Position numbers and translations under genes: made by a program | Shown: piece by piece, positions 11,446-62,240 of the stretch | Layout of the letters: each line of letters begins with the position of its first letter | How positions within the stretch are numbered: position 1 is the stretch's first letter | NCBI GenBank assembly: GCA_028753945.1 | Contig: JAPNXP010000009.1 | Coordinates: forward strand, 3,410,001-3,474,000 | Source: Hexactinellida sp. DTS-2022 | Taxonomy: Eukaryota; Porifera; Hexactinellida | Direction: 5' to 3' | Length of the DNA stretch: 64,000 nt | The notes under the pieces: generated by a model | Told to the model about the DNA's origin: nothing | Seen by the model: the letters and a program-made list of their open reading frames with translations, nothing else | The model's database searches: none

Positions 11446-12080
11446 ATGACATGTGTGGTGCCAGGTTGTAAATCTAATTATCATTCTGAGTGTGGATTTA
11501 CTTCTGTTTTCTCTTTCCCTACTGATGAGGATATTCGTGAGAAATGGTTCCGGGCTATACCTAGGCCGAGAGAAGATTACGAGACGCACAAACAGTTGAA
11601 GGTAAGATTAACTTTTAAATTTACTACTAGGGTATATTTCTATAAGGTGAAATTTATAAATCCCATATTTTTGTCAACCTAAATATTTGTTCTCCCCACC
11701 AAAACAATGAATATTTACACTTTAGAAAGAGTTCGGATAATCGAAGTTGCACTGTCATAGGATTATCAATATAAGAATTCATTGACACTGCTGTAGTTTC
11801 CTATGACTTCCGAATTCTTTACTTCAACACTTTCTTTGTTTCGAACTACAACTTGATACTCGTTTATTTTTAGAACTTAATTAATTAAATTTATAAATTT
11901 TAATAATATAATATAGTATTACTACGATCATCAAACAATATGATCGAAATATTTATAGTTTATAATTTATTCTTTATCTAAAGGTTTGTATTATCCATTT
12001 CAAGAATGAGGACATAGAGAGAAACTACATATGAATTTTTTGATGGTACTAAAATGGTGGAAGTACCCAGGAAAAAGATG
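11446..12080 (+). pseudogene. THAP zinc finger of the P-element transposase (two exons)
   Basis: Exon 1 (11446-11601) starts MTCVVPGCKSNYHSECGF and continues VFSFPTDEDIREKWFRAIPR, the first half of a THAP (C2CH) DNA-binding finger with its two cysteines. It ends at the donor AAG|GTAAGA. Reading resumes near 11983 with VCIIHFKNEDIERNYI, giving the C-x2-H second half, and after a one-base shift near 12032 runs into EFFDGTKMVEV and the AVPSIF motif (compare AVPTIF). The intron is about 380 bp. In P elements this finger recognises subterminal DNA. The one-base shift makes this copy non-functional unless it is a sequencing error. Confidence 0.8.
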
Positions 12081-13480
12081 AGTTTGAACAAATATGCAGT
12101 CCCAAGTATTTTCCCAAATTGTCCAGAATACCTGACAGATATAACTGTAAAACCCCAAAGACTTTCTAGTGCTGATAAGGAAGAGAAGATGATGCAATCG
12201 GCGTATAAAGAAAGTATTATTGACAACAAAGAAAATAATGCTAAGTTTTTTGTTGCTACTCTTGATTGTATGATTAGTAAATTGAGCCAAATTGAACTCA
12301 CTAACGGTTGGCTTTGCCACATACCTAACCCATCTACAATCCTTTTCCTAAAAATTCATTTTTATGGTGAAATAACTACAATAGATCGCTCCATAATTAT
12401 AGATCAAAACTTAATTTGTAAGGCTTTATATAAAGAGACACATAAAATTCAACTATCTTATAATGTACTGAATGATATGAGGTTATTGGAAAAAATCATT
12501 CAAGAAGTTGAGATATTTGAAATGGCCCAAATAAAAAGCGTCAGTTCTTCAGTCAACCCTGTTAATACACATGTTGAGAATGCAATAATGGAAATTTCTA
12601 GTGCTATCAATAAATTAGAGCCCAGTAATAATTCCCTTACTGAGTACGAAACCGGGAATACAGATTCTATGCGAATTCGTCTAAATTTTTTGTTAGATCA
12701 GCTCAAATACTTAATCCTTGATAAATATTCTCGTCGTTTTAGCATTCTTACTCAGGTTTTTTGTTTAAAACTTCAAGGAATTTCACCAGCCTCCTATCGT
12801 CTTATTCAGTCCTATAATTGTTTAATTCTTCCACATGAGCGTAACTTATTAAGAATTAGAAACAGCATCGGCTTACAGAGTGAGTATACAAAAATCATCA
12901 AAGAAATTGCAACCACTTTTAAACACCTAGAGCGACATGTCATCCTTCAAATGGATGAAGTACATATTCGTAGCGATGCAGCATATAAGGGAGGAAGAGT
13001 AATCGGGTCAATTGATAACCCTGAAGATCCACCCACGACAGTTTTTTCAATAATGATTTCAAGTTTAGCCGCTAGGTTTTCCACAATTGTACGGTTAATC
13101 CCTTTGGGCTCTTCTTCAGCAGAAAAATTATATCCAATTATCAAGTCAACTATTTATGATATCGAAGCTTGCGATCTGTTTGTTGAAGCTCTCTGTACAG
13201 ATAATTACCCACTAAACGTTCGTTTTCACACATTGTTCTCCGCTGATAATACACTTGTGCCAAAAGTAACGCACCCATGCAACCCAGAAAGAAGTATAAT
13301 TTTGTTTTTTGATATCGTTCATATCATTAAATGCATCCGTAATAACTGGTTAAATCTCAAGGATTATGAAAGGACATTTATTTTTCCGAAATTCGAAGAG
13401 TGTCTATTGGAAGGAGAAAAGTGTATCAATTCTATTAAATCTAATAAAACTCTTTTATCTCAGTCTCCACAGCCAACATT
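12054..13480 (+). pseudogene. P-element transposase, N-terminal and central catalytic part
   Basis: An open frame from 12054 (M1) follows the THAP AVPSIF motif. Residues ~160-225 are a low-complexity, coiled-coil-like spacer. The catalytic RNase H-like fold begins with HVILQMDEVHIRSD (Asp at residue 301), then KGGRVIGSIDNP, CTDNYPLN (Asp 383) and FFDIVHIIKCIRNNW (419-432). The order matches the P/THAP9 transposase, where the first two acidic residues come from equivalent motifs and a GTP-binding insertion follows. The true frame is lost near 13455-13480: the sequence continues in another frame as STKHFTSKTLY, LCYAPFQDIRNLF and joins the next segment. Confidence 0.85.
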
Positions 13481-14812
13481 TCAACTAAGCATTTCACTTC
13501 CAAGACACTTTATCCAGAACTGTGTTACGCACCTTTCCAAGATATTCGAAATTTATTCACATCTGATAAGTGTAATATCTTGAAAAGAGCGCCAAGATTA
13601 ACAGCTAAAGCGTGCTGGCCATCCACATTAGAAAGACAAAATGTTAACTTTGCGTTAAAAATCTTTCATGAAACAACATCCGCTGGGCTTTTATCTTGGA
13701 AAATGGAGAATAACATCGTAAACATTAATCAAACGGTCGAATTTCTTAATCTAATAAATCAGGTTTGGAAAACATTCAATGTCAATTGGGTAGGAAAAGA
13801 TATTCGGTTCAATGATGATTATTTAGCTCCTATTTATCCAGGTGATTTCCGTTTGCAATTTTTAAGAAATGTTGTCTCTTGGTTGGATAGCTGGATACAT
13901 CAGCCATTTGCACATGGGAAGTTAACACCACAAACTTTTACAAGCTTTCGACATACCTGTGAAGCATTACCAATGCTTGTTAACCGACTTACTCAGCACT
14001 GTGGATACCAGTATCTTCTAACTTCAAGAATCCAAAATGATGCGTTAGAACACCACTTTGGTCTGTATAGGCAAATGTCTGGGTCTCATTATCAGATATC
14101 ATTTACTCAAATTTTAGAAAGTGAACGTAGACTTCAGCTTTCTAACATTTTAAAGGTGTTTGCTATTAAATGCCAAGTTACTTCAGACGAAAAACCAGTC
14201 TCTCTAAAAGAATATATTAGCCAATTTAGTGACAACAATGATGTTGAAGAACAACTTGATTTTGAAATAGAACTCTATATAGATAAATTGAATGAAATTT
14301 CTCGTCCAGAAATTGATGTTGGCCAAATTGATTGTCTCGTATATATTGCAGGCTATGCAGTATTCTCTTATCTTAAAAAATCTAATGGTTGTCCATATTG
14401 TCAAGATTTCTTAACGACAGACAAATCACTTGAAGTAAACAATGATGTAGGTTCTCAATATACGTTGATAGATTTAGTGGATAGAGGCTCTCTCAAATAT
14501 CCGTCTCGTTGTGTAGTAGATTGTGTCTGTATCCTGTATGAAATTTTTATCAAGATTGATAACTGTAGTACTTTGAACAAAGAGTTTTATTTGGGACAAT
14601 GTCGAACCAAGTTGGTACAACTTTCTATTAAAATGATTACAGATAAATATAGTGATATGTGGAATGATTGGTGTCGGTGTAATGTTTGGAACTGCGATAT
14701 CCTAAAGAAGTTATGCGTAACATGGTCTAACTGCATCCTATCAAAGCGAGTCCAGAATTATAATAATGTGGTTCTGAAGAGAGATAATACCAAACTGAAA
14801 AGATACAATTAA
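13480..14812 (+). pseudogene. P-element transposase, C-terminal part
   Basis: The frame contains APRLTAKACWPS, VEFLNLINQVW, then LTSRIQNDALEHHFGLYRQM with the catalytic Glu (residue 157 counting from 13580). This is the ALE-x-F-G motif of P transposases that supplies the third acidic residue. The tail has CLVYIAGYAVFSYLKK, NGCPYCQDFL and DRGSLKYPSRCVVD, typical of the P-family C-terminus (a C-x2-C pair and LDRG-L-YPS). It reads cleanly to TAA at 14812. Together with the preceding segment it gives a near full-length transposase with one shift between the two. Confidence 0.85.
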
Positions 14813-40459: not shown

Positions 40460-41619
40460 TCACGCAAATAAATCTATATTGAAGTCCCCAGTAACTATCA
40501 AGGAATCAGAGTTATCAATTTTACATAGAACCTGATCAAGTTCCGAGTAAAATTCCTTCATTAGGGATTGTGGTGATCGGTATATAGACATTACCACGAC
40601 AGGTTTATCGATAATCATGGGATCATAGAACTGGAGAATCAATATCTCGATCCTAGCGCCATTATGACAGCCTGAGTGTGCAACTAAAAACTTACACATC
40701 GCTGGATTTCGGGAGTATATTTGTGTACCAGAACCAGGAAGTCTAGCACTACCATCAATTCTACCAATGAGAGTATGACCAGGGATATTAAAGTTATCAG
40801 TGGCCAAAGTCATTGTCTCCTGCAAGATTAACACTTGGGATTGTACTATGAATTGATTTACGGTCAAATCTTCCCAGTGTTTGTTCAATGAACGAACATT
40901 GTGTACATAGATATCTGGACTAGTTAGTGGAATAGACCAGATAATAGCACACTGTTCTCTTAACCGCTTAAGTTCTAAGTGGACAGGATCTTTTTCAAAT
41001 AACTTATTAGTTAGTTTTAGATTACCCACTATAAACAGACCAGAGGCAGATTTAGCCCTACTGAGCGCGGTGTATAACGCATTACGTAGCATACGTACTT
41101 CTATATGGACTACAACACAATCGTAAGTATCGCCTTGACTCTCATGAATTGTAAGAGCTTCGGCTACTATGAAAGGAAACTGCTTCCTAACAATCTTATA
41201 GGAACTCACACCTTTCCCTCTCTGGAAACGTCGTGTTTCCAATCCAATAGGAGTCCAGTTCCTTGGAATTGCATTATCTCTAAGATAACGATGGTGAGAC
41301 TTTGCTCGTTTATCCTTTCCTACTGTTGGATCGTCAAACTCCATCCAGAGAATGCAGGGAACTCGTTCCAGAGAATCGCTCTAGGTACCATAAACTATTT
41401 TCTTCAAGAGGCCAGTAGCTCCATTAATCAGACCATCTTGTATGTCGTTATTCACTGTCATGAGGTATCTAGCGCCCAGCTTCAAGAAGAGCTCATAGGG
41501 TAGTCCCTGGGTGTCACACACCTTTAGGTGTTTAATAAGGTTACTCAGCTTGTCAGTTATACCTCCAGCATTGTCTCCTACTAAAGAATCAATAGCTATA
41601 AATCTAAAACCTTCAGTGG
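40460..41619 (-). pseudogene. Helentron helicase C-terminus fused to endonuclease
   Basis: The minus strand reads LTTEGFRFIAIDSLVGDNAG, LFLKLGARYLMTVNNDIQDG and LLKKIVYGT, then an in-frame TAG at 41383-41381, then VPCILWMEFDDP, RKQFPFIVAEALTIHESQGD and LYTALSRAKSASGLFIVG (last helicase motifs). The endonuclease follows: YVHNVRSLNKHWEDL, LILQET (catalytic Glu region), GSGTQIYSRN and VTGDFNIDLFA. Fusion of an AP-endonuclease-like domain behind a Helitron-type helicase defines Helentrons. It cuts DNA in related proteins; its role in transposition is not settled. Confidence 0.85.
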
Positions 41620-42063
41620 TTAATGCATTGAGAACAATCTCGTTATGAACATTAACACTGGCGTTTGTACTAAACAGATGGATAGATCTGATGGGAAGAT
41701 TCTCATAAGAATCTTTCGTAATATTCTACTGGTAAAAAGATTTGTGTCATCCTCAGTTAAACAACAGTTAGCAAAATTGTTCAATGCTAATGCAAACTTC
41801 TGATCATCTTTTTGTCTCATTATTTCCGTCAGTTCTATATATGAGAATTTTTCCCAAAGGTACGGACCAACCAGCCCGTCGTAATTATTGGCACTGGAGA
41901 CTGAAATTTGAAATACATAGCTATCCATAACCGGACGTAACTGATGGAAATCTCCAACACAGATGATGGAGACACCACCAAAGTCCAGTGAATTGTCCAT
42001 AATCGCTTTCAATCGCTTATTAACCTGAGACAAAAAATTTACTACCAACCATGGATATTTCAT
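41620..42063 (-). pseudogene. Helentron helicase, middle motifs
   Basis: It continues the upstream segment after a frameshift near 42045 (joining ...IIDEISMVGS to NFLSQVNKRLKAIM). It carries GVSIICVGDFHQLRPVMDSY (motif III) and FSYIELTEIMRQKDDQKFAL (motif IV region), then shifts frame again near 41695 to rejoin NASVNVHNEIVLNAL. PIF1/RecD-like superfamily 1 helicase. Confidence 0.85.
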
Positions 42064-43885
42064 CTATTATGATAACTTTTAAATAGCTTAGCTTACTTCT
42101 TAATGTGTTACAAACATCAGAAGATAAGTTGGGCATTTCGCCGTTAAACTCCGTTACAGGTAAAGCAAATGCAGAATGTAGTGTCATACCACTGATATTA
42201 AAAGCAGCTTTACCTGTAGGAGCTGTTAGCAGTACCTTAATAGCATCAGGCTTAGTGCCAGGTAGTGAATTCATAAATCTTACCAAACTTTCGTATAAGA
42301 CTCGTACCACCGTACTCTTACCAAAACCAGCACCTCCTCCTATATAGAGATACATAGGTGGCTGCTTGATAGTCTTAAAGCAGTGCAGAGTGTGGAGGAA
42401 TACAGTACGCTGAACCTTGTTCAAGCTGCGACACATCTCAAGGAATACTTCCTCAGTATTCATGTTAGGAATTGTGAAGAATCCCCCTACAGATTTAGTT
42501 CCGGGGTCACTATTGGGATCTACAGTCCAGGGATTGTCGTTCCCTGGATTGTCTACCTGGAAGTCAGTATCCTCAATAACCACTGCACCCTCATTGTTCA
42601 TTATTTCCTCAATAGCAATCCCATCAAAGTTGAGCTCATCAGGGTCCAAGTCCTCGAGGATATTAATAGCCGCGTCAATTGAGGATTGGTCTCTACTTTC
42701 AAATAATTCCCTATTCTGAGTAATCAGATTAAGATGGGTAGCATACATAGACTTAAAGTCAATATTGTCAGTATCACTACTGTCAGTTCTCCATGGTACA
42801 AAAAGCATTAACTGTTCTCTATAAAAGTTAACTTCGTCCTGTATAATACTATACCTTCTAAATCGAATAATTTTAGCTTTACGACGAAGTCTCATAAAAC
42901 CTGTATCTTTGAGAGAGAATAGTCTCGGATTATCGACCAGGGAAGCTGCCTCGTCTTCCATATTTTCCTCATCAAAGTCGGGTATAATTTTACATATTCG
43001 CTTACTAGATTGGAATTCATACCAAGCGGCAAACTCTGCTAGGCATGTTTCCTCTAACTCATCAGGTCGTTGCATGTAGTGCTCAATTAGACCTGACAGA
43101 AGTATATCTACAGAATCCTGTTCCATACCCATTAGAACGGGTTTGGACTTGAGTATCCTAACCCGTTTATTAGCAGGATTGGTGTTAATATACACATTTG
43201 CTCTACTGCACTTAGAGAGAGGGAGACTGAGGAGATGGTAAGAAACCTCCTGAGCTGATACCTCGCTACAGCTCTGAAATTTGTATGCAATTCCCCTCAG
43301 TCTCTCCTTAATAGTGGCATTTCCTGCTTTCAGATGCATCAAGGCATCTCTCAACAACTTAGACATCCCACGTTGGGACTTTCCGATATACGAAATAACA
43401 TAAACAGCACAAGCATATGGATGCAATATGTATTGGAGATCCATATTAGCTTTCCAGAGATGCAATATAGTCTTATTATGAGCATTGATTCGTATCTCAT
43501 TCAAATTTCGTTTCAGAAATATAGTAGATCTATTTATACAAGATCTCAATGCAGTTATGTATTGCTCTTCGGTAACATAGAGTTCATTAAAGAAATCCTG
43601 TATCGTTATACTACCTAATTCAGTATCGCTCTTATCATAGGTGTCAATTAGAGTATATATTTTCTTAGCAGTCTCCTTAAGAGCTGCATTAGCTGCTATC
43701 TCCTCTGTGGTAGCCGTACTGGCATCAAACTCCAATGGTTCTAGAATTTTAGTTGATACCATTGGAGGGTACGGAATACCAAACCTACAGCGCCGAAACG
43801 ACTTTTTCTTATAACACGTATTTGTGTGCTTATGTCGCTGTAACTTAATATCATTCTCAGTTATTATACTAGTCTCATCTGGCAA
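42020..43885 (-). pseudogene. Helentron Rep C-terminus, linker and helicase Walker motifs
   Basis: The longest frame of the element (621 codons). It has a His/Cys cluster RHKHTNTCYKK...CRFGIPYPP (residues 17-42), the Rep tyrosine region CAVYVISYIGKSQRGMSKLL (Tyr 162 and 166, spaced Y-x3-Y), an acidic linker (~300-465), RSLNKVQRTVFLH, Walker A YIGGGAGFGKST (514-525), LLTAPTGKAAFN and Walker B VIIIDEISMVG (604-614). It is in frame with the preceding Rep part; a TAA at 43915-43913 (...LPEVI-stop-FIDRTIS) interrupts, where relatives have Glu. Confidence 0.9.
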
Positions 43886-43912
43886 TTTAACTGAGATAGT
43901 ACGATCAATAAA

Positions 43913-44546
43913 TTATATTACTTCAGGTAACGAATTGTGGCCATACTTAGGGGCTTCTTGTACCCAAAGTAACGAATGCACATGTGGTGAACCTCTTTGT
44001 TGAAATTCTATTCTCAAATAGTAATCAGTCAATTTACCAAGGGGACTAACCTCTGATCGAAGCACCTTAAATAGCTCCTTGGAGCGGTGATCAAAGTACC
44101 TAGCACAAGTGACAGGATCTCTCCTTATCAGATCTGCTCTCTCGCTCCACTGGAACTCCAGAACCTCTTCAACAGACAGCTTAACGTCATCTAGGATCTG
44201 TTTCAGTATCCTGAGTAGCTCTAGCCATTTAGTCTCAGCAGCAGACAGAGTTAGAAAGAACGTGGGACATCCCAGCTGTCTTATCGTAGACATCAGCTCT
44301 CTCTGTTTCTGCTGCCAGAATGCAGGGGTAGACCGGACTTGTTTCAAGAACTTAAAAGCCTCATCGTCCTCAAACCATTCTCTCCAGATTCTCGTCATTG
44401 AGAACATCAGACACAGTTATAGCCTGTCCGTCTGTAGACTTTGTTTTTCTCAGACAAATACTGATAGCACTGTTAAGACTAGCTGTCTCTACCAGTTTGT
44501 ATTTGAGAAATAGAAGGGGATGTTAGTGCTACATCTCCGATCATAT
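43913..44546 (-). pseudogene. Helentron Rep nuclease, exon 3
   Basis: The exon starts after the acceptor TTCACTAG at 44547 with RYDRRCSTNIP, shifts one base to FLFLKYKLVETASLNSAISI (~44515) and again at ~44390 to reach FKFLKQVRSTPAFWQQKQRE, IRQLGCPTFFLTLSAAETKW, DPVTCARYFDHR and FQQRGSPHVHSLLWVQEAPK. PHVH is the HUH motif whose histidines hold the metal for strand nicking, and it is intact here. The minus-strand donor/acceptor pair bounding the preceding 172-bp intron (44547-44718) has GT...AG ends and restores phase. Confidence 0.85.
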
Positions 44547-45565: not shown

Positions 45566-45714
45566 CTAAAGGAGTATAACAGATAATAATAATGTAATAG
45601 GATAACGCGCATATTATATTTGAGTGTGTCTTTGATTAATTAATTATCTCTAAAATTAAATAATATTTTAGTAAAGAAATTATTTAAATATATAAAGTAT
45701 AAGAATATAATTAC

Positions 45715-46998
45715 CTGTTTGACGAAATCAGAGTTGGAAAGATTCGTTGAAACAAGTTTCTCTCTCTTAAGAATAACAACTGTTTTCCTGAAATGGAGAC
45801 AACCACAACAAGAACAAACATACGTTGGACCTTGAGATATCTGGGAGAAATAACTTTGATTAACAGAGTTAACCTCCTCTCTATTAGTTCTATACTTCTC
45901 CAGAACATTTTTGTTGTGCTTTTCACGCTTTTCAGGATCCTTCAACCTCTCGGCCACAGCGTCATTATGCACTGCACGCTTTTCAGGATCCTTCAACCTC
46001 TCGGCCACAGCGTCATTATGCACAGCACGCTTTTCAGGATCCTTCAACCTCTCGGCCACAGCGTCATTATGCACAGCACGCTTTTCAAGATCCTTCAACC
46101 TCTCGGCCACAGCGTCATTATGCACAGCACGCTTTTCAGGATCCTTCAATCTCTCTGCTACAGCGATATTATGCTCAGCACGCACATTAGGATCCTTCAA
46201 TCTCTCTGCTACAGCGATATTATGCTCAGCACGCACATTAGGATCCTTCAATCTCTCTGCTACAGCGATATTATGCTCAGCACGCACATTAGGATCCTTC
46301 AATCTCTCTGCTACAGCGATATTATGCTCAGCACGCTTCTCAGGATCCTTCAATCTCTCAGTCATAGCGTCTAGCTGCTGTTTATTATGCTCAGCACGCT
46401 TCTCAGGATCCTTCAATCTCTTTGTAATGTCTCGTAATTGATTTTCTTTGTGCTTAGATATAAAATCGGGATCATCACAATCCTCATTGAAACGCTCAAG
46501 ACGAGCCTCATTCTCAGTTTTACAAAACTCTGAGTCATCAGTTCGTCTCTTCTTGATAGCAGCTCGATTTCTATCTTTTCTAGCCCTGTATCCTTTTCTC
46601 TTCCGAGACTTAGGGGTAGAGATTCCCTTCTCAGGAGTCATTGGTACATCAGAATACTGGCTAGACAAATCGAGGTCGTTTAAAGGTACAACTTGAGACG
46701 ATATCGGAGTCTGTTGTACCGTTTGAGAGGAGGGGAATATAAACACATCTGGTTGGGAAGATTCATCTATCTCCATAGAACAAATTTCCTCCTCCGTTGT
46801 TGAACCAGGCCCAGGATTTATTTCAATCCCACTGATTATCAATAAGGCGCTGATGGTGTCAGCCTGTAGGCGGGTAGACATGCGAAACAATATGTCGAAA
46901 CATAGACAATACTTTTTGACTATACACTGGGATAGTGGGGACTTAGCACGCCCACCCCAGCCACTTATTCTTGCTCTATAGAGCTCGATTGATATCAT
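45715..46998 (-). CDS. Helentron leader exon: 2A-like motif, KDP repeats, zinc knuckle
   Basis: An open exon of ~428 codons. Residues 50-65 read SALLIISGIEINPGPG, close to the 2A ribosome-skipping motif (D-x-E-x-N-P-G-P) but with Gly where Asp is usual. Residues ~120-160 are basic (RKRKGYRARKDRNRAAIKKR), nuclear-signal-like. Then ten copies of a charged helix repeat (ERLKDPEKRAEHNIAVA type, 17 residues, the first 20). The exon ends with SQGPTYVCSCCGCLHFRKTV, the cysteine cluster that opens the conserved part of Helitron-like proteins. A second in-frame ATG at residue 40 is also possible as start. It is free of stops. Confidence 0.75.
45905..46430 (-). repeat. 51-bp in-frame coding minisatellite
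   Basis: Ten tandem units of 51 bp (the first 60 bp) encode the 17-residue KDP repeat. Two sub-types, EKRAVHNDAVA (left) and NVRAEHNIAVA (middle), form blocks, showing local amplification. The length is a multiple of three, so both strands stay open over the array; only the minus strand is part of a recognisable protein. Confidence 0.95.
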
Positions 46999-47390
46999 AT
47001 CTAATTAGCAAGTTAAAGTATAAAGCGAAATATAAAATAGATTTACAGTAAATACAGCAGTGAAAAAGAAAGTTTAATTAACTATATTATCATATTATTT
47101 TGTATTAATTAAAATTAAAATTGATTTAAAAATACCGGTAGTAATTAATTAAACTTAATTAATACACATAAGTTCTAGCAGGAACAGTAAATATTGAGAA
47201 CGAATTGTGAGAAAGAAAAAGAAAGTGTATTAATAAATAGAATAGGAAAAACATTACCTTCAAAAATAGAAGTTTACGACAATGATTCAAAAGAATAAAG
47301 GTAAAAAAGAATAAGTAAAGGTCAAATAATGAGAAAGATAGAAATTATTAAATTTATACTTTTTGAAGAAACCTGTAAGTATAGATGTTC

Positions 47391-55627: not shown

Positions 55628-56042
55628 GCTCGCATACGCTTCCTTGTTGAATGAGATTTGGATCACTGTCAGCCACAACACCCTCCAGTTCCTCGCTCGA
55701 CGCGATAAAGGAGGCAGATGGCCACGCAAATTGCCGCAGCTGAATCTTCTCGGAGGCGTCGGGACAAAGGAGCCGTCTACCAGTCAGACCGTTTTTGGTT
55801 CTGAAGTCCCACTTTCTGATAACGACTAGGATGCAGAATGCCCAGTCTGTAATGAAAGAAATTGTCCCCTACCTCCAAAAAGGAAAAAGGAGCACCGGCT
55901 TGCATGTCATAAATGTGAAACATGGATTCATTGGTCCTGTGCCGGGATAAAGTCCAAGAAAGGTCTTCTAAAATATTATTTATGTACCAATTGTCAAAGT
56001 AATGGATTTAGTTGTGATTATTGCATAGACTCCTTTAGATAA
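55628..56042 (+). pseudogene. Mutator-like transposase C-terminus with PHD finger
   Basis: It continues the gene cut at 35717. The joined frame reads FNDGSLAYASLLNEIWITVS, NTLQFLARRDKGGRW, then TAG at 55827-55829, then AECPVCNERNCPLPPKRKK, LACHKCETWIHWSCAGI and YYLCTNCQ, ending at TAA 56040-56042. The cysteine/histidine pattern (C-x2-C, C-x2-C, W-x-H-x2-C, C-x2-C) is that of a PHD finger, which reads histone tails in chromatin proteins. As in the N-terminal part, the DNA is less AT-rich than its surroundings. The PHD at the end of a Mutator-like transposase is seen in the sequence; its role in target choice is inference. Confidence 0.75.
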
Positions 56043-57148
56043 GGACTGGAACGTCGCGATCTCGGGTTTAACTTGAGTCTGAGAGGCTCCAATTTTATAA
56101 ATTGAAAAAGGATTATATTTCCGGTTTCCAAATGTGATTTTTGGTATATAGGGGTAACTTTTGGCACCCGTCAACAATTTGAGGTTTTCACTCAAAATTT
56201 CTCACACCACGACAAGTTATGACGTCATTGTCACATTTCGTAAAGCCCGAAAAGTCACTTAATCGCACATAATTCGCGCACTCTAAGAGAAAAATATGAA
56301 AATTTAATAGAACATGCTTTAATATTTTTTGAGTTTATGAGCTCATACCATATACCGAATACTAGTTAATTATCTCATTAAATCAAAAAGTATTAAAGTT
56401 AGGCATATGAAATGTACTATTTATTAATAGGAAGTCAACTATAGCGGACAGATTAGCACTAGTCTAGTTTACATAACATTTATAGTTTTGGAGTTATGGC
56501 TCATTTTAGGAATATACATTTGCCTGACAACCGAGGAATGTGTCAACATTCCATTTATAATTTCGATATATTTTATTTAACTAGATCTGGGCATCACTAT
56601 GTACCAATGTTGAACATTTGTAAAGCGTTTAACTGTGTTAAAAGCAGGCTTTACTCTAAAAACATGATAATTCGCGGGAAAATTGACGATTACACAATCA
56701 GATGAGTGAAAGTTTGATGTTTCACAACTGTTGGATTCTATTTATAAATTGATATTTAATTACATAGCAACGTAAAGGCGGATATGATATTCTTATTCCT
56801 TTGACATTTATGCTAGTATATAAATATACGAAGAGAGAGTCGTAAGCAAATTCTCTGAAAATTTTCTGTGTACTCTCAATGATGTTGAACAATAATCGGA
56901 CACAATTATTTTGCCTATTTAGTGTGAAAAATATCGGTGAGCAGTCGTGAGCAGATGTTTTTAATTTTTATTATGATAGCTAATTGGTTTAACTTTAATT
57001 TGGTATATTTTATCGGACCGCACCAAGCCGCCCCGAGGCCCTTCTGCCCAATTTTCTAGAAGTCAATAATAAATTTCTTAAAATGTTTAAAATATAAAAA
57101 TTCAAAATTGATCAAATTTTAACATTGTTAGACTGTTGATATTATAGA
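56043..57148. other. AT-rich spacer upstream of the RAG1-like gene
   Basis: It holds one plausible small open frame (56496-56705). Just before the RAG1-like start is a GC-rich patch, CCGCACCAAGCCGCCCCGAG (57018). No RSS-like heptamer that pairs with the downstream one was found. Confidence 0.4.
56496..56705 (+). CDS. Small ORF upstream of the RAG1-like gene
   Basis: The 69-codon frame (MAHFRNIHLPDNRGMCQHSI ... RSGHHYVPMLNICKAFNCVK) has a protein-like mix and an ATG. It lies ~440 bp before the RAG1-like ORF on the same strand and could be an N-terminal exon of that gene, but no clear splice donor was found. I do not recognise the family. Confidence 0.3.
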   Translation: MAHFRNIHLPDNRGMCQHSIYNFDIFYLTRSGHHYVPMLNICKAFNCVKSRLYSKNMIIRGKIDDYTIR

Positions 57149-59274
57149 ATGAATAACAAAGAGGCTTTTAAACTTTTAAACTCTAAACCATCAATCAGAG
57201 CTGCTTCTGAGGAATTACTACACATATTCCAACAGCCGGATAGCGAATTTCATTTCATTACTCGAAATTTTCGCGATCTCAAATCGGGAAGAGAGAGCTT
57301 TGTAAAGAAAAGTAATTTATGCACCTGGGAGGAGTTGATGTTTTACTCTCCTAGAGTTAAACAAGATGCGGAGAAAATACCTTCAGCTGACAATGGAATC
57401 TTTACCGTTGACTTATCAGCAGAAATACGAAAGGACTTATCAAAGTTAACCTTCAAGGGATTGAGAACTAGATTAGCGCCAGTATTGCAACTAATCCGTC
57501 AAATAGCTGAGAAAGAGGATTTTAGTGCCAAAACCATAGCCGCTCAAGCGCTTCAACTTATTTCTAACGAGACTAAGGATGTAAGCACGGCAAACTTCTG
57601 CAAGGAAATCATTTCAAAGGGGACATTTGCAGATAAATCGAAAATTATGTCCATAGATAAATCAACGTTCTTGCTTGATCTTCTCGAAATTGGTAAGCAA
57701 AAATATACATCTTTTCGGTTAATTTGTAAATCAGAGGACATAATATTTCCATCTTATTCTAAACTTGCTGAATATCGTAAGGATGCCGTTCTAGTTAACG
57801 AGTTAACCTATGTAAACAATGTCCATAATGTTACTATCGGGATCTCACTATCTTATAGAAGGATTTTATTCCAGAGTTTATTACGTCTATTTCAAACATT
57901 ACCTCCGATCCTTGATTTTGAATTCCCTTTATCAGTAAAATTGCTGACGGCCTCGATGGTTCTGGTTGTCATCAGATTTATAATCATTACCAACTCAATC
58001 CAACCCCAAGTTCGAAATTATTTATCTTATTCGCATTCAAAATTTTATCCATACACAACTCGAGTAACATGCAAATATGGAAAAACTACTCACCTAATTC
58101 TTCATTTGGCGTAAGACCAGTTGTATTATTGGCCCAGAAAGAATGTTATGAGAACGTTAAATTCATTATGACTAATTTCATTAATCCAGAAGTATCAGTC
58201 ATTGAGCAAGAAGGAATAAAGTTTCCTAAAGGTGTTGTTCGTGTTAAAATCAGCCGTAGTATGCTCGATGGGAAAATGTCTGGTATTCTAAGCGGAGCTG
58301 GTGGCGCATCGTGTCAGTTATGTACTGCACATAAACACGAATTAAAAGATCTAGAATTAGTCAGGGCCGGATTCCCTATTAATAGGCACATAGCAGATGC
58401 AAAAGAACTGTTCAATTACGTGGATGCGGATGAATATTTATCACTTCCTCATGCTGATAGGTTAGGTATCACTCATGAACAACTATCCGATATAAACATA
58501 CTGTCGGCGTCGCCTTTACATAGCTATACTTGTGTCTTCCATTGGTTCATGCTCCTTGTTTATCATTTAAAGACTGGAAGGAGAGTATGGTCGCCTACTT
58601 CAAAACCAATCGAAACAGCGAAAAAGTTTTGTTCTGAATTTCTCTTTGAAAAAACTGGCCTTCGAATAGATGAGCCAACACCTCAAGGCGGTACTACTTC
58701 AACAGGGAATATTTCTAGGCAATGTTTTTCCAATAAAAATGATTTTATCACATGGGTATCCTGTCTAATTCCGGCAGACGTTAGAGAGCAGATTGCAATC
58801 ATTCAAATGAATCTATCAGTTATCTTACGAGTTTTTAACAGTAGCCAGGAGGTAGAAACAGAAAAAATGGATGTCCTTTGCAAACAGACTTACGAGCTAA
58901 TTTTAACAACCTTCCCATGGGCAAGTATTACCCCTTCATTGCATAAGGTTTTAGCTCATTCCACAGAATTAATCCGTGATTGCAATGACGGTTATGGACT
59001 GAAAGAATATTCAGAAGAGGCTGTAGAAGCTTGTAATAAGCTAATAAGGCGCTATCGTGAACACCTTTCAAGAAAGAATTCATTTTCCTTAAACATCAGA
59101 GATGTTTTTATTAGACTTCTTAGTCAGAGTGACCCTCTCTTTTCAAGTTACCGTAGAGTTTTAGTGTGCAAACGTTGCGGATAAATAGGGCATATCAGGA
59201 AGGAGAAGTGCAAAGGAGATAAAGTGGCTTCACTGGATCAGGAAAAACTTTTGGATTCATTGCTCTTCAAATAA
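57149..59274 (+). pseudogene. RAG1-like transposase (DDE, zinc site, CCHC tail)
   Basis: Two frames overlap, offset by loss of one A in the run at 57937-57940. Across it the protein reads PLSVK then IADGLDGSGCHQIYNHYQ, where ADGLDGSG holds the first catalytic Asp (57946-57948). The second part (counted from 58069) has the CX2C zinc pair SGAGGASCQLCTA (Cys 82, 85), Asp 141 in LSDINILSASPLHSYTC, LRIDEPTPQGGTTSTGNISR, HKVLAH (His 292, 297) and YSEEAVEACNKLIRRYRE (Glu 320). The DDE plus CX2C...HX4H order matches the RAG1 core, related to Transib. TAA at 59182-59184 splits a CCHC knuckle (CKRCG-stop-IGHIRKEKC); the frame then runs to 59274. In ProtoRAG-type proteins such a tail binds TIR DNA. No RAG2-like kelch gene was seen nearby. 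Alternatives: Transib or Chapaev-like. Confidence 0.75.
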
Positions 59275-60732
59275 ATTCCTTAGTTTAGTATCTATGATAT
59301 TAATAATAAAAATTTGAAAGTTAATATTGAATCGTGAAAGCATGAAGTAGTATGTCTTAAATAGAGTGAAAATAATATGCATTGCATTCGAAGTATTTAG
59401 GAACACATTATAGAGCTAAATAGATATTTTTGTAAATATGTGATGTCACGATGACGTATTAAATCAAAAAATTGAAGCGGTACATAAAATTAAGTGATGT
59501 AAATTGAATGTAGAGGGTTGATAACCCATACGCAAATAATACATTTGATAGGTCTGTCTGCCTCGCAAATGCCTATTTCCCCTGAATAGCCATAATAACC
59601 CACTGTGTAGCGACCCCTGTATTTTTTCGGGGGATTGAATAATAATATATAAGAGAAAGTACCTGTAAATTTTGAATGAATTATGATTGTATTTTATCTC
59701 GGAAAATTGCGCTCAAAGTATGAAAAGAGAAAACAAAAAAAAAAGAGATTTACACCACTTTAAAAATACTTATTTATCTGGTATATAGGGAATATTCGAG
59801 AATTTAATGGCATTGAGGTAAACTTCCGTGTCTCCTCTAACGAATGATACCAAAATAAATTAGATTCAGTTGATATTGGATAGGAATTGACACTTTGAAC
59901 TAATCATACTGAGTTGACTTTTCAAATTTCGACTTTCACGCATTTTCCCAACTTCAAGTTTGAATTTTTATAACTCAAAACTTTCTTGCGAAATTTTAAA
60001 TAAAATTTAAATCACATAACCTCCATTACTCCAAAGCAATTACAAATTTTCAGAATTGTAAACAAATTTTGAGATAGTGATTTTTTATGAAATACCAACC
60101 CTGAATTGTATGATAAAAATAACTAACTGAAATTTAATTAAAAAAAAAATCATATTACAGTAAACCTCCGTATCTCCTCTCTCGAAAGATAGTAAATTTA
60201 TTCAAATCTGATAACTAAAAGTGAGTCAAATATGTGACTGAAGTGACCCTGGTCGAATACTAAGTCAACTTCACACTCATTCATGCTGTTCGGTATTCGT
60301 TACAACTGTATTAATTTTGAATTAATGCAAATTCCATAAGGATTATATATGTAAAAGAGTACATCACTAATAACATCACATTCAATATAGCACGCTATCA
60401 ATTTAATACGTTTTGTTCATTATGCAGCTAAGTGGATACTGCAATATTGACCTATTTAATTTGACCTTTATTATATCACGACTCACACAAATAGATCACA
60501 ACATCCTAATATTAATTGATAATATCTAATTACTATTTTCGGTTTCAGCGGCGATAACCTAAATAAATTGTTTTAATCAAGGATACATTTGGGAGGAAAA
60601 CTATATAAACGCAACGACAGTTTTGCAATTAGTATCAAATAAGTCAATAATGAATATCTTTCCAGTTAGCAATTCCGTATACACTTTTCTTCAAAGAGAA
60701 ATATATCAGTGAAGTGATTTGTAAAAAGGAAA
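59275..60732. other. AT-rich intergenic interval
   Basis: Two direct copies of a (A/T)AAACYTCCGTRTCTCCTCT-type phrase (59819 and 60164), similar to pogo/Tigger termini, occur here. No kelch-type gene or other ORF was seen on either strand. Confidence 0.4.
59601..59607 (-). other. Candidate RSS-like heptamer (right TIR end?)
   Basis: CACTGTG, the reverse complement of CACAGTG, lies 327 bp after the RAG1-like ORF, in the orientation expected of a right terminus, followed by TAGCG. No matching left end with the same 5-bp flank and similar inner sequence was found, so this may be chance. Confidence 0.2.
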
Positions 60733-61792
60733 TTAGTCATTAGAATCTGATTTTGATGACTCAGTTAAATTCTGTGGAAGATTGCTGTTTTTATTAAAAT
60801 ATGATCTGTAAGATTGTGATGAAGGAATGTTCATAGATGCATTAAATTCTTTAGGAGAGAAACAAGCAAATTCAGAAGTTACATCAATTGGTAACCGATT
60901 GCTTTCTCTAGCGATTTTCTGTTCTATTAGATAAAAAGTATATTCATCGAATAATAAGCGAATTAAATGAAAAGAGCCAAAACTTGTAGATGATCGTAAT
61001 GTCAAATCACGAATTATCATGGAACTATAAAAAGACCACTTGAGTAAGAATTGTCTCGAATACTCAATTAAGTCCAGGGAAGAACTAGCGTTCTGAATAC
61101 AATTAGAGACTACATTTTCAAGCCATTTCCCCCAGTTTTCTAGGGAAGGACGTTTAACTAATGTTTGCTTAAATTCTTTTTCTAACTTTGAAACTAGAAA
61201 TACGTCACACTGACAAATCCATGAAGCTTGTTCTTGAATGCTTACGAAATTAACCTTTTGAATATCATCGTACATTTCAGTCGTATTCCGTGGATTCTGT
61301 AACACTGTCCTTGCTGCATGTGCTAAATGGTTCAAAGATGTATACCTACGAAGAATCTGTGAAAAAGATAAAATAGTTGCCAATTTAGAATTCAAGAATT
61401 TTATAGGGTAATCATAAATACATTCTAAGAGCAAGATATCCAAAGATTTTGCAAATTGTCTAACTTCCTGAGTAATTGCAGTTGGTATTGGTTTAAGAAC
61501 ATCAGGTATCAGTGTAGAAATAATAGATTGGTATAATATTTGGTCACATTTTCTTGACCACACTAAAATCTTTTCATGTGAACATATTTTAAGAATAATG
61601 TCATTTTTATAAAGATTGGATTGATTCAATGATGTATTCTCACAGTTATTGGCAAAAAAGGTATTCATTGTACTAATTGGGCAATCTTCTTTCTGTGATT
61701 TGGGTCTTTCTAACTTAGTAGATTCTAAATTTTGTTGATCAACATTAATGATTTCGTCAGTATCATCTTGATTGAGAAATATACTTGCCGAC
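60733..61792 (-). CDS. RFX-family transcription factor, terminal exon
   Basis: From the acceptor CTTCTAG|G at 61793 the frame is open for ~350 codons to TAA at 60733. It encodes the conserved C-terminal half of RFX proteins: ILVWSRKCDQILYQSI, LIPDVLKPIPTAITQEVRQF, ILRRYTSLNHLAHAARTVLQ, VNFVSIQEQASWICQCDVFL, NWGKWLENVV, RQFLLKWSFYSSMIIRDLTL and RSSTSFGSFHLIRLLFDEYT. In RFX1-3 this region mediates dimerisation and follows the winged-helix DNA-binding domain, which would lie upstream on the minus strand (above 61792) and is not recognisable here. RFX factors switch on ciliary genes through X-box sites. It is free of damage, so it is most likely the host gene; a partial retrocopy is the alternative. 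Confidence 0.85.
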
Positions 61793-62240
61793 CTAGAAGA
61801 TTACATAAATAAGCAAATACTCAATATTGAGCGGTAGGATACTAAAATCCATTACATTGTGAGTGTATGAAACAACGGATCTTTAAAAATACGAAAGTCT
61901 AGTCCGAGGCATTGTATTAAATCAAATACACCGGAAATCACATAGATTATGGTATTATATATACGATGTTATCCAGCCAAAGCATTTGAACAATAGGAAT
62001 TCAAAGCAAACACAATAATGATGATGTAACAAATTAATAGCTCTTTTATTTACTCTGAAATGACTATAAATATATTACCATAGTTATAAATTAAAAATAT
62101 TATGATTTAATGTCATTTTAACCAATATCCATTAAGTGGCCTAAGTGTCTTTCCACGTCTCAGTAGAAAATAATCATGATGAGACCGCGGAATTTGACTA
62201 AAGCAATTTAAGGAATTTGACCACACATTGATGTTTCAAT
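61793..62240. other. Putative RFX intron and spacer
   Basis: AT-rich, no upstream RFX exon recognised. It ends in GTTTCAAT, the left TSD of the next element. Confidence 0.4.

Follow-up and report, generated by a model that had tools for sequence, protein, structure and literature searches.

A dead, left-truncated transposon, very probably of the Transib superfamily, and its intact relatives in a hexactinellid sponge genome

Introduction

Transib transposons are described by Martin et al. 2020 (PMC7204232) as elements with one gene, CAC tips and 5-bp target site duplications (TSDs). The same authors distinguish Transibs from RAG1 and RAG1-like (RAG1L) proteins by two traits, their low identity and their lack of the RAG1 N-terminal region. 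Tao et al. 2022 (PMC9435367) divided the Transibs further. Members of Subgroup I have an alpha11-alpha12 region, a CTT1 tail, and asymmetric ends and are closer to RAG1L, while members of Subgroup II have lost the alpha11-alpha12 region and have another tail. Among the listed titles and abstract openings of open-access papers on Transib and sponges, none reports a Transib in sponges.

Here, we analyzed a stretch of 64,000 nucleotides from Hexactinellida sp. DTS-2022 (the window). The original prediction for this window, made from the sequence alone, was a RAG1-like transposase core at 57149-59274 in an invertebrate-type genome. We conclude that the locus very probably holds a cut-and-paste transposon of the Transib superfamily, most like Subgroup I, in a copy that is dead and truncated on the left. 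The intact element measures about 3.08 kb and has one transposase gene of about 710 aa.

Results

The transposase sequence lies on two overlapping stop-free frames of the forward strand (57140-58114 and 57922-59184 in the ORF listing). Piece 1 (57149..58114, +) runs from an ATG to the first stop past a frame break and, by its own ORF and by the single ORFs of siblings (relatives of the element elsewhere in the genome), comprises the N-terminal part, a part like the RAG1 nonamer-binding domain (NBD), and the pre-RNase H part. Piece 2 (57922..59184, +) comprises the RNase H-like catalytic core, the zinc-binding part, and the start of the C-terminal tail. It matched the Pfam RAG1 family (PF12940; E = 1.1e-7, 30.9 bits, cut-off 25), and its top match in the PDB was HzTransib of Helicoverpa zea (6pqn; E = 7.7e-20, 74.6 bits), followed by amphioxus RAG1L (6b40; E = 2.1e-7, 33.7 bits) and mouse RAG1 (E = 6.6e-6, 28.8 bits). 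Given these Pfam and PDB matches, the resemblance to the RAG1 family is not due to chance. Piece 1 alone returned nothing significant (best Pfam E = 0.03, best PDB E = 0.018).

Searches with a profile built from 12 intact relatives in the same genome gave the same ranking. Against the PDB, the profile scored 156.9 bits for HzTransib, the one Transib reference used for scoring, 73.1 bits for RAG1L, and 63.5 bits for RAG1; the E value for HzTransib went from about 1e-20 with the single sequence to 1e-45 with the profile. Over the aligned stretches, identity was about 27% to HzTransib and about 22% to amphioxus RAG1L. The window family and HzTransib also have in common a GTT..GN..R motif, which was not seen in RAG1L or mouse RAG1. 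The alignment to mouse RAG1 began at position 72 of the profile, and positions 92-150 reached the RAG1 NBD chain 3gna (E = 0.0053), marking an NBD-like stretch at 57422..57602 (+) in the window. About 91 aa of the transposase lie upstream of this stretch, and no Pfam zinc or RING match was found in them.

The catalytic and zinc-ligand residues of a RAG1 core were present in the window copy, in RAG1 order, and were invariant in the 12 aligned siblings. They comprise a first catalytic Asp (57955..57957, +), an additional Glu (58141..58143, +), and a second catalytic Asp (58267..58269, +), each aligned to mouse RAG1, along with the CX2C zinc ligands (ZnC2; 58312..58323, +), an intervening His (58519-58521), the HX4H zinc ligands (ZnH2; 58942..58959, +), and the final catalytic Glu (59026..59028, +). 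We take the four acidic residues to be the equivalents of D600, E662, D708, and E962 of mouse RAG1. This confirms the predicted RAG1-core transposase with its acidic residues and zinc ligands. Between the zinc ligands, an insert of the alpha11-alpha12 (RAG2-binding) type (58369..58506, +) aligned with RAG1L and RAG1 and fell in a gap of HzTransib in the sequence alignment.

A CCHC-type tail had likewise been predicted, and it was recovered as a C-terminal zinc knuckle (CX2C...H...C; 59167..59211, +). In the window, the knuckle is split by an in-frame stop (59182-59184); it is intact in L003, L012, L014, and L015. Among the 12 aligned siblings, a CX2CX4HXnC knuckle was present in seven and missing in five, with n = 5 except in L024, where n = 3. 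The intact siblings of the window family read CX2CX3GHX5C, compared with CX2CX3GHX4C in the RAG1L CTT1 motif, so that the spacing agrees only approximately.

The element as a whole is larger than the predicted interval, which contained the transposase pieces. By homology to five siblings (L009 to L013), it occupies 56705..59607 (+). Four of these (L009, L011, L012, and L013) matched the window over 2904-2964 bp at 97.9-99.7% identity, and L010 matched over 2610 bp at 98.9%, plus a displaced right end. In L010 (C4:1678806-1684905), the two ends are 6.1 kb apart, with about 3 kb inserted just past the transposase gene. Homology stopped at 56705 in all five, and sibling sequence ran on for about 177 bp beyond this border, to a CACAGTG. 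The window copy therefore keeps its right end (59590-59607) and is missing about 177 bp on the left, including the left terminal inverted repeat (TIR). The left break adjoins an interspersed repeat (56365-56675) that also matched sequence in L016 and in L019.

Fuller siblings are 3077-3081 bp long and have the inverted repeat CACAGTGGGTTATTATGG at both ends. In the window, this repeat is found at the right end (59590..59607, -, reading inward), where the genome-wide search for the TIR matched it without a mismatch, and comparison of end motifs placed an inner TIR motif, GGGGAAATAG reading inward, at 59573..59582 (-). The near-identical siblings are flanked by 5-bp duplications (CGCTG, GATTG, TAGTA, and CATTT). 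By analogy, TAGCG, the first five bases beyond the right end of the window copy (59608..59612, unstranded), is presumably a target duplication whose left partner has been lost.

The element carries a single gene between its TIRs. In siblings, the transposase occupies one frame of about 710 aa, which is broken in L009 as well as in L011; a single ORF of 708-710 aa encodes the same protein in L003, L012, and L013. No ORF longer than 115 aa was found outside the transposase frame in any of the 13 delimited copies, and no RAG2L gene was found within these elements. An ORF with a PHD finger (55830-56039, +; Pfam PHD, E = 3.2e-5) lies about 0.7 kb to the left of the window copy. We considered it as a RAG2-type partner and rejected it, since it is outside the element, whose left border is at 56705.

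The window copy is dead, as it cannot make a full protein: its frame is broken, and the stop falls inside the zinc knuckle. Because its left end is lacking, it can also no longer move as a unit. It had been suggested that the breaks might be assembly errors. For the stop, this does not hold, because the sequence around both the frame break and the stop recurs unchanged in L009 on contig C3 (99.7% identity over 2904 bp), a copy with two ends and a duplication of its own at an unrelated insertion site. The lost left end is real as well, and assembly error is ruled out for it. The other four siblings differ from the window around the two lesions. L012 and L013 read through the frame-break position in one ORF, and L011 has a length change of a different size at that position. 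This change makes it possible that the site of the frame break, though not the stop, is a mutation hot spot or a run prone to repeated error; the frame break may thus still be an error.

Since L009 shares the lesions but occupies an unrelated site, and the homology between the two copies stops at the tip of the element, the simplest reading is movement in trans: a broken element would have been mobilized by the transposase of an intact sibling, giving a near-identical copy elsewhere. The variation of L011 at the same run weakens the case for trans-mobilization, and gene conversion is an alternative route to two copies that share lesions.

We examined the ends of the family at 19 loci, accepting pairs with CAC tips, at least five matching tip bases, 12 of 20 matching positions, and at least four of five duplicated bases. 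Thirteen loci were accepted, and both ends began with CACAGTGG in all of them, although, with CAC tips required by the search, independent evidence comes only from the AGTGG that follows. The duplication was complete (5/5) in 12 of the accepted loci and 4/5 in L025. For L014, the second-ranked pair was used, since the top-ranked one extended over 6.7 kb and had a duplication of 4/5. No pair was obtained for L010, with its right end displaced by the insertion, or for L019, L020, and L027. Two more loci were set aside: L017, with a 4/5 duplication and a weak tip, and L016, which contains an inverted piece, though the ends of its pair, too, read CACAGTGGG and are flanked by a 5/5 duplication.

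Behind the tips, the two ends differ. An inner motif resembling GGRAATAG is located near base 26 of the left end and near base 35 of the right end. Taking nine family representatives out of the 13 accepted loci, we found the motif shifted by +9 or +10 on the right relative to the left in seven, including the window family (+9); the offset was chosen after the ends had been seen and the families are related, so these do not amount to nine independent trials. In 2,000 shuffles, such an offset occurred in 0.20 representatives on average and in three at most. The opposite offset (-9 or -10), evaluated over a shorter stretch, occurred in none of the nine. The exceptions were L018, with an offset of +14, and L026, with none. 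A difference of 9 also separates the 4- and 13-bp spacers of an Aureococcus RAGL element (PMC9435367), and 12/23-like ends are reported for a few insect Transibs (PMC8355894).

Many relatives of the element are present in the host assembly (112.4 Mb in 18 contigs). Piece 2 matched at least 105 stretches, a lower bound given that 100 of 900 candidates were scored. At least 13 of the 105 contain stop-free frames of 711-757 aa, so that the intact copies for which a search had been proposed do exist, and recent activity, also predicted, is supported for the family. A 711-aa frame at C16:1909003 was not counted as intact, because neighboring rows from that copy contain stops. The alignment comprised 12 of the 13 intact frames, with C5:2424851 omitted as a near-duplicate; the aligned set contains two near-identical pairs, and pairwise protein identity within it ranged from 99% down to 38%. 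The 18-bp TIR, allowing two mismatches, had 54 matches in the genome, compared with two for the reversed pattern. Seven facing TIR pairs with CACAGTGGGCTATTATGG-type ends are only 1.06-2.45 kb apart and are probably non-autonomous derivatives. One of the seven, at C18:3407130-3408200, lies about 1.8 kb to the left of the window. Beyond the host, no relative was confirmed among 66 pattern hits in prokaryote contigs or 67 in viral contigs.

In an unrooted tree of 13 sequences from this genome together with HzTransib, RAG1L, and mouse RAG1, RAG1 and RAG1L were split from all other sequences with support of 100/100. The tree has long branches for HzTransib (4.05), mouse RAG1 (2.98), and L029 (1.87), with the attendant risk that long branches meet, and the make-up of RAG1L is unusual.

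The highest Pfam RAG1 score of the genome search (32.4 bits, among the 68 of 76 candidates scored) belonged to a relative at C2:3227715-3229808 (L050 plus L029). It has a 698-aa stop-free frame with the catalytic residues kept and scored 105 bits against HzTransib and 80 bits against amphioxus RAG1L. The sequence is single-copy, the 74 other scored rows being 26-44% identical to it. Its right end, at 3230203, about 0.4 kb past the frame, reads CACAGTGGGC... and contains a GTGGAAATAG motif whose last base is number 36. Upstream, 1.1 kb of sequence showed no matching left end, and a search of that stretch and of 1.5 kb downstream for a TIR pair with its duplication was negative. A domesticated gene was considered for this locus and rejected on finding the family-type right end; it is a divergent transposon copy, perhaps immobilized because its left end is lost, or with that end further away.

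Elsewhere in the window, we observed a Helitron-like element (40463-44416, -) with a Helitron N-terminal domain (E = 2.3e-28), a PIF1 helicase, UvrD_C_2, and an endonuclease on successive ORFs. Near it is an ORF with many tandem AERLKDPxxRAxHN-type units (45640-47004, -). At 12018-14812 (+), the first of two overlapping ORFs contains a TNP-like RNase H transposase domain (E = 2.4e-10), and we take this locus to be a broken P-element-type transposon. An ORF at 60736-61800 (-) with an RFX BCD domain (E = 3.5e-85) is probably an exon of a host transcription-factor gene. Many of the sampled loci are transposon-rich, and GC content was 32-37% in 40 of the 48 (range, 29.7-47.7%).

The predicted invertebrate-type host was borne out. 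The genome had no match to cellulose synthase, which makes a tunicate unlikely, and none to a silicatein-like DNA pattern, a result that lends no support to a demosponge with silicatein. It contained 12 homeodomain matches at E = 1e-8, with no clear Hox among them; we read these as Msx, NK, POU, Prd, LIM, and Six types. Such a set without Hox is usual in sponges.

Discussion

The locus has the marks of a Transib: HzTransib is its best match, it belongs to elements with a single gene, and the family has CAC tips and 5-bp TSDs. As far as its sequence can tell, the window family also shows both of the features by which Martin et al. separate Transibs from RAG1 and RAG1L. The original prediction was thus right in calling the protein RAG1-like in the sense of RAG1-core homology. 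It was not right in the sense of RAG1L or ProtoRAG, given the HzTransib match, the single gene, the short N terminus, and a tree position outside RAG1 plus RAG1L. Best matches and a tree placement firmly inside Transib had been named as what would count against that prediction; the best match is indeed to a Transib, and the tree, with three outside references and no root, goes part of the way.

Within the Transibs, the alpha11-alpha12 stretch, the asymmetric ends, and a tail knuckle that approximates the RAG1L motif lead us to file the window family as probably Subgroup I, an assignment by features, the tree references having been HzTransib, RAG1L, and mouse RAG1. Subgroup I elements likewise have asymmetric TIRs, an alpha11-alpha12 equivalent, a CTT1-like tail, an NBD-like region, and a single gene (PMC9435367); the window family differs from them in the spacing of the knuckle, in its absence from five of the 12 aligned siblings, and in having a sponge as host. 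HzTransib (6pqn series) resembles the window family in the DDE core with ZnC2 and ZnH2 and in the GTT..GN..R motif. Its solved chain, however, has 497 aa rather than about 710, is only about 27% identical, and is without the alpha11-alpha12-type insert that the window family has; the zinc-knuckle tail of seven of the 12 aligned siblings is a further difference.

The RAG1L-RAG2L elements of the ProtoRAG type share with the window family a RAG1 core, CAC TIR tips, 5-bp TSDs, and a CCGHC-like tail. In contrast to them, the window family has no RAG2L gene and no detected RAG1 N-terminal zinc region, and identity to amphioxus RAG1L is about 22%. In vertebrate RAG1 and its recombination signal sequences (RSSs), the catalytic and zinc residues follow the same order, and there are two types of end, which differ in how far inside the inner motif lies. 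The consensus RSS heptamer is CACAGTG, the same as the end heptamer of the window family. However, the inner motif of the window family is GGRAATAG-like and not the nonamer, the shift is 9-10 bp and not 11, and vertebrate RAG1 is a host recombinase, whereas the window family is a mobile element.

Could the locus instead be a ProtoRAG-type RAGL element, or a RAG1L gene, that has lost its RAG2L partner? The Pfam RAG1 match, the alpha11-alpha12-type insert, the NBD-like stretch, the CCGHC-like tail, and the bipartite asymmetric ends would all fit, yet we think this very unlikely. HzTransib scores more than twice as high as RAG1L and shares with the family the GTT..GN motif unseen in RAG1L or mouse RAG1, the (unrooted) tree split has support of 100/100, and a second long ORF is absent from all 13 delimited copies. 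The window family also appears to lack the RAG1 N-terminal zinc/RING region that a RAGL or ProtoRAG element should have, as none was found before the NBD-like part. Across the genome, a RAG2 model matched nothing and a RAG2-PHD search gave one match below the cut-off (E = 0.8). The RAG2 control was silent as well, so that genome-wide absence is only weakly shown and the single-gene elements are the firmer evidence. Still harder to credit is that the element belongs to Chapaev or another distant DDE superfamily and has its motifs by convergence. Kapitonov and Koonin 2015 (PMC4411706) place Chapaev in a wider Transib superfamily with weaker similarity, but the HzTransib match (E = 1e-20 to 1e-45, by single sequence and by profile), the 5-bp TSDs, and the CACAGTG ends speak for Transib proper.

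The remaining alternatives concern the state of the window copy. Retention of the active-site residues is what a Transib-derived gene domesticated by the host would show, but a broken frame, a stop, a lost left end, and the presence at other sites of four near-identical copies flanked by 5-bp duplications leave this reading next to no credence. There is also little chance that the frame break and stop are both sequencing errors in an intact gene. A homopolymer had been noted at the break and the length of L011 differs at the same place, as repeated errors would give; however, L009 on another contig is identical at both breaks, a nonsense codon is not what a homopolymer error produces, the copy also lacks its left end, and L012 and L013 have one ORF through the place of the frame break. 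We therefore retain a dead, left-truncated Transib copy as the preferred reading.

The way in which intact members of the family move may be pictured from what is described for related elements. Two transposase subunits would bind both ends through the CACAGTG tip, the inner motif, and the NBD and knuckle parts, with a short-spacer left end pairing with a long-spacer right end. The CAC tips would be cut through a nick and a hairpin, and insertion would occur with a 5-bp stagger.

The new copies add material to a known kind of element; the host and the subgroup are of interest, while the window copy itself is ordinary. Asymmetric ends and the insert have already been published for Subgroup I (PMC9435367), and what is added here is material, not a new principle. 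The predicted bearing on the origin of V(D)J recombination does not come from a RAG1L protein, but the family still bears on RAG origins, because it shows those features of Subgroup I Transibs that come closest to RAG1L. A bolder interpretation, which we offer only tentatively and regard as doubtful, is that an early-branching animal harbors a large, recently active radiation of RAG1-related elements lacking RAG2, whose transposases pair only a short with a long end, so that a precursor of the 12/23 rule and the RAG2-docking insert of RAG1 predate RAG2 and exist without it. The same tentative interpretation would have the V(D)J-type design kept across families sharing only about 40% protein identity, with a CACAGTG tip and an inner motif whose two positions differ by about one helical turn. 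The value of the family lies in its many intact and diverse RAG1-family transposases, with RSS-like heptamers, spacer asymmetry, and RAG2-free elements. With them, it could be tested whether transposases without RAG2 already favor short/long end pairs and whether the RAG2-binding insert of RAG1 is older than RAG2.
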